Part shown: positions 30,322 through 34,885 of the stretch, piece after piece
Position numbering within the stretch: position 1 is the first letter of the stretch
Layout of the letters: every line of letters starts with the position of its first letter
Source: a virus
Direction: 5' to 3' (one strand)
Length of the DNA stretch: 64,000 bases
Virus record (IMG/VR): IMGVR_UViG_3300042922_001182
Coordinates: 62,001 to 126,000 of that record
Program-made: the position numbers and the translations under genes
Notes under the pieces: model-generated
Seen by the model: only the letters and a program-made list of their open reading frames with translations
What the model was told of the DNA's origin: nothing
The model's database searches: none

Positions 30322-30395
30322 GCCTTCGTAGCTCAGCTGGACAGAGCGGGTCCGTCCTAAGGACAAGGTCGGGGGTTCGAATCCCTCCGGGGGCG
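30322..30395 (+). tRNA. tRNA-Arg (anticodon CCU)
   Basis: A 74-base cloverleaf. Acceptor GCCTTCG pairs with CGGGGGC (two G-T pairs). The D stem is GCTC/GAGC around AGCTGGACA. The anticodon loop is GTCCTAA, with U33 followed by CCU. The T arm is GGGGG-TTCGAAT-CCCTC, with a five-base variable loop. The outermost anticodon-stem pair is a G-A mismatch. CCA is not encoded. It reads AGG, a codon used heavily in this window's genes, so it likely supplements the host pool. Confidence 0.85.
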
Positions 30396-30438
30396 CTCGC
30401 CGAAAGGCGCTAACGGCAAAGAGAAGGAGAGAAGCAAC

Positions 30439-30954: not shown

Positions 30955-31001
30955 AACGCAGAAGCGGCTAAGGCGTAGTGCCTTAGCCGCTTCTGCGTTT
31001 C
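30955..31001. terminator. Bidirectional terminator between convergent genes
   Basis: A 20-base perfect inverted repeat (30955-30974 with 30980-30999) with a five-base loop, followed by T's on the plus side and lying seven bases from the minus-strand stop at 31008. Confidence 0.8.
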
Positions 31002-31771: not shown

Positions 31772-31785
31772 CTTATGATAGTGTT
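31772..31785 (-). promoter_or_regulatory. Candidate late promoter, AACA-N6-TAAG (minus strand)
   Basis: Read on the minus strand: AACA-CTATCA-TAAG, 39 bases before ATG 31733. Confidence 0.5.
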
Positions 31786-31797
31786 AACGGTTTTGTC

Positions 31798-31807
31798 CAC
31801 ATATCAT
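31798..31807 (+). promoter_or_regulatory. Candidate phage promoter, CACATATCAT
   Basis: AT-rich element 40 bases before GTG 31847 and only 12 bases from the opposite-strand AACA-N6-TAAG element. Confidence 0.5.
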
Positions 31808-31846
31808 CCTATCGCACCAGGAAAAGGTCGCGTAAAGGAGAAAGAC

Positions 31847-32410
31847 GTGCATCAACAGATCCATGACATCAGCGGCCTTGAGACCGCCATCAGACTTCAG
31901 CGCGGGACGGAGTACCAACTCGCACCCGGCCAGGAGTTCCAGGGGATGGGCGCAGAGCTCAGGGTCTCCCACATCCCCCTCGGGAGGGCGTGCGGCGCCT
32001 CCTTCGAGGCGACCCCGAGGCAGTTGATCGAGACGAGCTTCCGCTGCCCGGGTTGCGACCCCATGAACGAGGAGTACGGCACCGACATCATCCGTGGGGT
32101 GCTCGACGAGGCGGGGGTGGGTTACACCGAGGGGGCCTTCTTCGAGGGCCTGGTGGGAGAGGACGGGGGAGACCTCGGGTTCGACTTCGAGGTGGAGATC
32201 CCCGGCAGGGAGGACCCCCTCTACATCGCCTTCGCGCCCTCCTACTGCTTCATCAACCACGACCGCATGACCCAGGACTACCAGACACTCAGGGGGTTCG
32301 CCTTCGAGTACGAGATGGACTTCCTGGAGTTCACCTACCAGCAGGAGCCCGCAGGGATCCGCAAGGAGCTCCAGGAGGAGCTAGCCAAGAGATTGACGCC
32401 CGCTCAGTAG
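31847..32410 (+). CDS. Possible degenerate PD-(D/E)XK nuclease-like protein
   Basis: A 187-residue protein; GTG at 31847 follows AAAGGAGAAAG. FRCPGCDPMNEEYGTDIIRG followed by ...GVGYTEGAFFEGL, then LGFDFEVEI and PLYIAFAPSYCF, resembles the family of small phage/homing-type endonucleases. In those a zinc knuckle precedes an E...hFDFh...hIEhDGxQHF core. The FDF aspartate is present, but the place of the catalytic glutamate (IEYDG) reads IAFAP, so activity is doubtful. Weak call. Confidence 0.4.
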   Translation: MHQQIHDISGLETAIRLQRGTEYQLAPGQEFQGMGAELRVSHIPLGRACGASFEATPRQLIETSFRCPGCDPMNEEYGTDIIRGVLDEAGVGYTEGAFFEGLVGEDGGDLGFDFEVEIPGREDPLYIAFAPSYCFINHDRMTQDYQTLRGFAFEYEMDFLEFTYQQEPAGIRKELQEELAKRLTPAQ

Positions 32411-32417
32411 AGCGAGA

Positions 32418-32443
32418 GGGGGGACGAGTTCCCCCCATTTTTT
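32418..32443 (+). terminator. Rho-independent terminator
   Basis: GGGGGGA-CGAGT-TCCCCCC followed by A and seven T's. The next ribosome binding site (GGAGG) follows directly. Confidence 0.75.
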
Positions 32444-32454
32444 TGGAGGAACCA

Positions 32455-33627
32455 ATGAACGCCAAGGAATCCCCCACCGTCCCCCTGCACCTGGTGCTCG
32501 CCATGGTCGGCGGCAACCACGACGACCGAGCGCGGATCCTCTCCTCGGCCCCTATCTTCCTGGACTACGGCACAGTCTCGGGTCTGGAGGAGCTGGCCAA
32601 GGCCCTCGACTTCATGGGCCAGAAGTCCGACCGCTGGAGGAAGGCCCAGTACTTCGCCAAGATGGAGTTCCTGCGCCTCGGCGGCTGGCGCTTCCTGGAC
32701 CGATACGGCGACCCGTCGTCGTACGGCGCGATGGCAAAGATGGTCTTCCTCGACGACTGCCCTGAGTACGAGCTATTCGAGAAGCTGGTCTCCAACCCCT
32801 ACGCCCCCATGATCTCGGAGCAGGCCTACCGGCAGCTGCTGGAGGAGCTGGACCGGCCCCAGCAGCGGATCGCCTACCCCGAGATCCCCCTCCCCGAGGG
32901 CTACGTCGTCGTCAAGGCCCCCGCCTTCGAGGAGGACCCCCGAGACATGATCAGCCCCGGGGGCTACGAGGAGGCACTGACGAAGGCCGGTATGGAGACG
33001 GTCGTTCTGGAGGAGACCGTGGCCCAGGTGGAGCCCACCCCTCTGGCCGTCGTCTTCCCGCCCAGGAACCCCGAGCTGGACCGGAACCCCCCTCCGTCAC
33101 CCTACCACACGGCGTCCCCGGAGCCCGTCGTCTCCACCGCCACCACCATCTTCCGCTCCAGCCAGAAGATCGTGCTCGACGGCGAGTGGTGGGTGGAGGC
33201 CAACCCCAACATCACCGCAGGCGAGTTCCTCAAGAAGACGCATCCCGATAACACCCGCGTCCTGGTCGAGGTGCTCCGCGACGGAAGCCAGGTCGCCGTC
33301 CACAGGGACGACCGGATCTTCTTCCACAGCAACGTGTTCCGGGTCTTCCGGCTCTACGAGCAGGAGAACGGTGAGCCCAAGAAGATCGCACCCGCCGTGT
33401 TCATGTACGGTCTGGATGGCGAGATGGTCGTTGCCTCAAAGCGGATCATGACTGCCGAAGAGATCCTGAAGGACAACGGCTGGGATCCGGAGCTGTTCTA
33501 CCTCGTCGAGCTACTGGGCAGCAGCCAGCAGGAGAGCTACGAGAACAAGAACGGCACCGAGTTCGACTTCGCCCTGCCGGACCACAGGCGCCTCGTCGCC
33601 GTCTACTGTGGTTCTACCGCCAACTAG
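32455..33627 (+). CDS. Protein with two tandem ubiquitin-like (beta-grasp) repeats
   Basis: A 390-residue protein; ATG at 32455 follows TGGAGGAACCA. The N-terminal ~150 residues are helical, followed by a proline-rich linker (about 195-235). The C-terminus has two homologous ~70-residue repeats at about 236-300 and 313-385. Both contain LDGE, a V strand, an (I/M)TAxExLK helix, a VLVEVL/YLVELL strand and a final hydrophobic strand. Order and length resemble the bacterial Multiubiquitin family (tandem beta-grasp domains linked to E1/E2/JAB-type systems), a tentative match. There is no C-terminal di-glycine (ends CGSTAN) and no conjugation enzyme nearby. Confidence 0.55.
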   Translation: MNAKESPTVPLHLVLAMVGGNHDDRARILSSAPIFLDYGTVSGLEELAKALDFMGQKSDRWRKAQYFAKMEFLRLGGWRFLDRYGDPSSYGAMAKMVFLDDCPEYELFEKLVSNPYAPMISEQAYRQLLEELDRPQQRIAYPEIPLPEGYVVVKAPAFEEDPRDMISPGGYEEALTKAGMETVVLEETVAQVEPTPLAVVFPPRNPELDRNPPPSPYHTASPEPVVSTATTIFRSSQKIVLDGEWWVEANPNITAGEFLKKTHPDNTRVLVEVLRDGSQVAVHRDDRIFFHSNVFRVFRLYEQENGEPKKIAPAVFMYGLDGEMVVASKRIMTAEEILKDNGWDPELFYLVELLGSSQQESYENKNGTEFDFALPDHRRLVAVYCGSTAN

Positions 33628-33637
33628 GAAGGACACC

Positions 33638-34168
33638 ATGAAAGCTTACGTCACCATAGGTCTCCCCGGATCGGGGAAGACCACGTTCGTCAACGAGTTC
33701 CTGCCCAACGCGGTGAACCTGAACCTGGATGACTACCGGGCGATGGTGGGCACCGGGCCCCACGACATGCAGGCCTCCAGGGAGGCCGCCGCACGGCGGG
33801 ACCTGGACCTCCGGGTCGCCGCCTCGGAGGGCCGGGACGTCGCCATCAGCGACACCAACATGAGCAAGAAGTACAGGCTCCCGCTGATCCACATGCTCCG
33901 GGGTCTGGGCTACGAGGTGATCTTCGTGCTGTTCGACGTCGGGTGCGCAGTCTGCTGCACCCGGCAGTCCGATAGGCCGGTTGAACAGCAAGTGCCGTAC
34001 GAGGCCATCAGGAGCATGGACAAGCGCTTCTTCGAAGACGGCGCTTTCAGCACCGACGAGTACGACCGAATCATCAACATCGTCCCTTCCTACTCAGGGA
34101 GGCTGTTCGACAGCAAGCCTCCTACCATAACGATGAGGAGCGGCGGCTTCCCGTGGTGCGTCACATGA
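33638..34168 (+). CDS. P-loop kinase, polynucleotide 5'-kinase-like
   Basis: A 176-residue protein; ATG at 33638 follows AGGAAGGACACC. Walker A GLPGSGKTT (residues 8-16), then NLNLDDYR with the aspartate expected of T4 Pnk-like kinases, and VAISDTNMSKKYR, the strand and DTN motif after the second core segment. An R-rich lid follows later (CTRQSDRPVEQQVPYE). Resembles the kinase domain of T4 polynucleotide kinase without the phosphatase domain. Substrate (DNA/RNA ends or another small molecule) is unproven. Confidence 0.75.
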   Translation: MKAYVTIGLPGSGKTTFVNEFLPNAVNLNLDDYRAMVGTGPHDMQASREAAARRDLDLRVAASEGRDVAISDTNMSKKYRLPLIHMLRGLGYEVIFVLFDVGCAVCCTRQSDRPVEQQVPYEAIRSMDKRFFEDGAFSTDEYDRIINIVPSYSGRLFDSKPPTITMRSGGFPWCVT

Positions 34169-34852: not shown

Positions 34853-34885
34853 GCCGGAAACCGTCCCACCCGGACGGTTTCCGGC
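34853..34885 (+). terminator. Hairpin terminator
   Basis: GCCGGAAACCGTCC-CACCC-GGACGGTTTCCGGC, 14 perfect pairs, four bases after the stop codon; no T-tract. Confidence 0.6.

Follow-up and report, generated by a model that had tools for sequence, protein, structure and literature searches.

A viral gene at 32455-33627 of the analysed window (the whole stretch of DNA under study, 64,000 nucleotides long, which corresponds to positions 62001-126000 of a record of 238,984 bases) encodes a 390-residue protein, P0001, that carries two C-terminal modules with a weak but measurable likeness to the bacterial Multi_ubiq domain. Directly established for P0001 are the gene, its linker, its repeat, a statistical Multi_ubiq resemblance above that of all other proteins of the phage, and the absence of the enzymes tested for. 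Our preferred reading, held tentatively and only just short of an even chance, is that P0001 is an accessory protein in which an N-terminal region is joined by a flexible proline linker to a duplicated ~70-residue module, derived from Multi_ubiq or like it, that would bind non-covalently.

The gene and its surroundings

The record (239 kb, G+C content of 63.5%) encodes several multi-subunit RNA polymerase proteins, and the nearest named phages for its SbcC-like protein and RNA polymerase beta-type subunit are Bacillus phages AR9/PBS1 and relatives (29-37% identity), so that, judged by these proteins, the record is that of a jumbo phage distantly like AR9/PBS1. Translation of 32455-33627 agrees with the 390-aa product that an earlier sequence-only reading of this DNA had described. 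The GC3 of the gene (0.916) is the same as the window median, and the reading frame is a real gene and no artefact. The features of the locus are as follows.

32418..32436, + strand: GC hairpin resembling a terminator, with T7 after it, immediately before P0001 (promoter/terminator scan)
32445..32449, + strand: Shine-Dalgarno sequence GGAGG, 5 nt before the ATG of P0001 (read from the sequence)
32455..33627, + strand: P0001, 390-aa orphan (open reading frame translation)
32455..33024, + strand: N-terminal region, residues 1-190, without a family match (profile searches)
33025..33144, + strand: proline-rich linker, residues 191-230 (11 Pro in residues 190-230)
33148..33372, + strand: module r1, residues 232-306, Multi_ubiq-like (hhalign 22-39% alone)
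33385..33624, + strand: module r2, residues 311-390, Multi_ubiq-like, with the tail YCGSTAN (hhalign 53-72% alone)
33638..34168, + strand: next gene, a polynucleotide-kinase-like AAA_33 protein, 10 nt downstream of P0001 (profile matches)

The hairpin stands between P0001 and an upstream 211-aa gene, and its T-run stops only ~10 nt ahead of the P0001 start codon, so that a promoter would not fit between them. P0001 and the polynucleotide-kinase-like gene probably share one transcription unit. The 211-aa gene (31775-32410) has a CPGC pattern with weak HNH/homing-endonuclease PHROG matches, and terminates at a strong terminator-like hairpin. Elsewhere in the window, a near-perfect 20-bp hairpin at 30955-30999, probably a bidirectional terminator, separates a 116-aa gene (+ strand) from a 254-aa gene (- strand); a tRNA-Arg (CCT) gene, the sole tRNA detected within the window, lies at 30322-30396; and a perfect 14-bp inverted repeat with a 5-nt loop is found at 34853-34885, immediately past a 231-aa gene.

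Neither a search of 50,697 phage records nor peptide patterns in IMG/VR turned up relatives of P0001, and the 37 related jumbo-phage records that were reached via a conserved RNA polymerase subunit contained none either. The single match in a bacterial genome was to a Cas10-like protein, and was attributed to chance through the string KDNGWDPE; the plasmid matches that were inspected look unrelated as well (e.g., acyltransferase/acyl-CoA synthetase). By these sequence searches, P0001 is an orphan in the collections covered.

The internal repeat, its likeness to Multi_ubiq and its predicted fold

P0001 has two similar ~70-residue modules in tandem on one chain, a finding that is separate from the matter of their Ubl nature. 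Both stretches that had been quoted as internal repeats are present (LDGEWWVEANPNITAGEFLKK...VLVEVL and LDGEMVVASKRIMTAEEILKD...YLVELL), and r1 and r2 align with a score of 42 over ~40 residues (LDGE..V......TA.E.LK....D......LVE.L), which was equalled once when the second module was shuffled 2000 times and, with slightly shifted module boundaries, in 2 of 1000 shuffles. However, the two modules are alike in their first halves only, and the repeat is unexceptional proteome-wide: when 189 phage genes were sorted by shuffle z, P0001 (z 5.8) came 12th, several of the genes ahead of it contain far stronger internal repeats (z between 10 and 30), and a raw score of at least 42 was seen in 286 of 4709 adjacent-segment pairs of the phage proteome. 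Given the shuffle result and this rank, the duplication is probably real but modest.

Multi_ubiq proteins were retrieved with a consensus query written from general knowledge of the family, for which the matches listed were mostly annotated 'multiubiquitin domain-containing protein'. In tblastn, this consensus matched none of the 50,697 phage records vs 167 plasmid records, and two scans of IMG/VR found no Multi_ubiq. We constructed our own profile from 25 domains out of 14 of the plasmid proteins. P0001 ranked first among 2952 stop-to-stop phage ORFs in a blind search with this profile (8.2 bits, E 0.49) and first among the 261 called phage genes (E 0.037), and the profile matches to the two repeats were in register. 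On its own, the C-terminal region scored 13.1 bits, a value reached by none of 5000 shuffles. In hhalign, r1 and r2 together gave 85.5% to Multi_ubiq (E 5.7e-6; range for the repeat pair 79-85%), a probability that is unstable for two- or three-row alignments, as a random third window can lift it to 91%; the controls stayed at or below 9.3% for 500 column shuffles, at 0.14% for the reversed profile and at or below 7.8% for 60 shuffled profiles. When used alone, r2 reached 72%, above all 2368 windows taken from the other phage proteins, the best of which gave 54.7%, and aligned across 59-61 of the 62 profile columns; r1 alone reached 22% in this window control, and two of the 2368 windows scored higher.

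The likeness to the Multiubiquitin family that the sequence-only reading had proposed, together with a profile search as its check, is thus borne out in part. P0001 is the best phage protein against our own profile, but the curated Multi_ubiq profile PF14452 (cut-off 24.5 bits) gave no match to it at E <=10 in either hmmscan or a six-frame search; by comparison, this profile scored two of the retrieved plasmid proteins, which are genuine members, at 119 and 164 bits. Furthermore, with a wider profile of 41 domains, to which five more proteins and their third domains had been added, P0001 scored more weakly (E 0.35 among called genes) and was nearly level with an unrelated gene. Aligned pairwise with single Multi_ubiq proteins, r1 and r2 scored 56 and 58, and at least 56 was obtained for 6 of 1655 other phage windows. 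Pairwise shuffle z values of 6-9 to single Multi_ubiq domains were discarded after a genome-wide control. The modules are likely to be remotely related to Multi_ubiq; the evidence from these alignments is suggestive and just short of proof, and we claim no membership of the family.

A beta-grasp layout had also been suggested, with structure prediction and comparison to ubiquitin as the check. AlphaFold run on the two modules without an alignment (pLDDT 43) gave module 1 the element order b-b-a-b-b-b and module 2 a b-b-a start with strands after it, in agreement with the suggestion as regards the order of elements. On the other hand, the model for which the two repeats served as the alignment (pLDDT 59) has a b-a-b-b-like order with a long first strand, and is closer, weakly, to ribosomal uL23/dodecin-like arrangements than to ubiquitin. 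This two-row model had no PDB match below E 0.1, and its VIA-align rows were uL23-like at Z 4.5, mutually tied and below the tool's meaningful level. No ubiquitin-like chain was listed by Foldseek and VIA-align for either of the two low-confidence models, comparison of the AlphaFold model with BFVD gave nothing, and a PDB sequence search with the two-row profile found no Ubl. From the models, the P0001 modules possibly have a beta-grasp fold.

In the strongest alternative, P0001 is a fast-evolving phage orphan whose duplicated small alpha/beta domain is unrelated, its Multi_ubiq likeness being a convergent short beta-beta-alpha pattern (LDGE...TAxEhLK). We regard this as a substantial possibility, somewhat below even. 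It would fit the missing curated family match, the restriction of the r1/r2 similarity to the first ~40 residues, the two-row model whose best, weak fit (Z 4.5) is to uL23/dodecin-like chains, and the wider Multi_ubiq profile that gave no improvement. It is, however, harder to reconcile with P0001 being the phage's best Multi_ubiq match by two methods with its repeats in register, and with the near-complete coverage of the profile columns by r2 (59-61/62).

Conjugation enzymes, the C-terminal tail and possible roles

Profiles for ThiF, Prok-JAB, Prok-E2_A and Prok-E2_B found nothing across the 239-kb record, which is possibly incomplete, and by these four profiles no linked E1 (ThiF)/E2/JAB genes as in Bil/Bub-type operons were found in it. 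The translated product ends ...VYCGSTAN, with no GG and one glycine five residues from the end, so that it has neither the C-terminal Gly nor the Gly-Gly of a conjugatable Ubl. The earlier statements that conjugation enzymes and terminal glycines are lacking hold, the former for the four families searched and the latter in the sense that no GG is present (...YCGSTAN).

Because the phage shows no conjugation enzymes and P0001 no terminal diglycine, a non-covalent action of the modules is most likely, and we infer a binding role of this kind for the tandem module as the most economical reading. According to our preferred reading, r1 and r2 probably diverged from a Multi_ubiq beta-grasp domain or are alike in fold; they would form a two-headed non-covalent binding surface, with both the binding role and a partner presumed, and would tether the N-terminal part of P0001 to that protein partner.

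The sequence-only reading had pointed out that bacterial multiubiquitin-type pathways include anti-phage ones, and that a phage copy could be a decoy or inhibitor. As to the pathways, Bil is listed among anti-phage pathways, but phage defence has not been demonstrated for Bub-type multiubiquitin operons (PMC13373217). As to P0001, a decoy directed at a host Ubl pathway (Bil, Bub or CBASS type) would have its tandem modules take the place of the host Ubl on a host E1, E2 or JAB and would itself stay unconjugated. Its likeness to Multi_ubiq is consistent with this role, as is the frequent occurrence on plasmids of Multi_ubiq operons that include E2, ThiF and DUF6527 or JAB-like partners, and pathways with Ubl-like conjugation are indeed countered by phages, as by T4 Vs.4, which sequesters the cGAMP that conjugated cGAS makes (PMC10097602). 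However, Vs.4 itself is no Ubl mimic, the demonstrated protection is wanting for Bub operons as noted above, no anti-defence gene was recognised in linkage with P0001, and no relatives were found in the phage, IMG/VR and jumbo-phage searches. In addition, the conserved residues of the second half of Multi_ubiq (VDL, GVERF motifs) are mostly unconserved in the phage modules. We therefore consider a decoy or inhibitor unlikely.

A second protein was reached from the best other window of the profile control. P0002 is a 176-aa protein encoded at record positions 191493-192023, outside the window, and its start overlaps the end of a GmrSD_N (DUF262) gene. Its last 75 residues are VYFVNGKAYASSGVLIGGREVLGMALIQGDFNPLTQSMWQENQDGEDFRVHSDMSFNIQGQRVYFYTAPNQINGG, then a stop; they resemble Multi_ubiq (hhalign 49%; 2 of 5000 shuffles as good) as the selected best of 2368 windows. 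The C-terminal end is ...VYFYTAPNQINGG, with a Gly-Gly, an ending found in 10 of the 261 phage proteins. The P0002 domain showed no significant similarity to r1 or r2, and a search for P0002 relatives found none. A value of 96% in hhalign for r1 and r2 combined with the P0002 domain was rejected as selection-inflated, since the pair attains 91% with a random third window and 85% with a selected one. It is quite improbable that the phage owns a multiubiquitin-like set, with P0001 as a diglycine-less decoy or adaptor and the Gly-Gly protein P0002 beside GmrSD_N, which would hijack or block host ubiquitin-like conjugation.

Finally, P0001 is very improbable as a covalent modifier whose tail a host JAB-type protease would trim at ...YCG/STAN for attachment to host or phage targets by host enzymes: the glycine five residues from the end and the ...CGGSS or ...GQSS ends of certain plasmid Multi_ubiq proteins would allow it, but a glycine within the last five residues is commonplace, P0001 has no GG, and the phage has none of the four enzyme families searched for.

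Comparison with known systems

If the modules are true Ubls, P0001 would be the first phage tandem multiubiquitin-like protein in the material searched (0 of 50,697 phage records, 167 plasmid records) and a specific candidate for the way in which phages deal with bacterial Ubl pathways; otherwise it would be an ordinary orphan protein in which a domain has been duplicated. TAPI is a known phage protein with a Ubl beta-grasp domain (PMC1779556), so a Ubl fold in a phage is not new by itself. TAPI sits in lambdoid tail modules beside TAPK with its JAB and NlpC domains, whereas P0001 lies in no recognised tail cluster, and the PF06805 (TAPI, Lambda_tail_I) profile has no match in the phage record. 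T4 Vs.4 differs in another way, acting against its bacterial pathway by sequestering cGAMP and not by Ubl mimicry (PMC10097602).

The closest comparison is with the Multi_ubiq proteins of Bil/Bub-type operons, for which solved PF14452 structures exist (BilA, 8u38, 9cd2, 9d59 and 9d5b; BubA, 9ea8). Unlike these, P0001 has an extra N-terminal region and a proline linker, its second module halves are diverged, it has no PF14452 match, and it comes without E2/ThiF/JAB partners and without GG. Like them, it has two ~70-residue tandem modules with a DG turn, an I-T-x-x-E-hL helix start and a hydrophobic strand after the helix.
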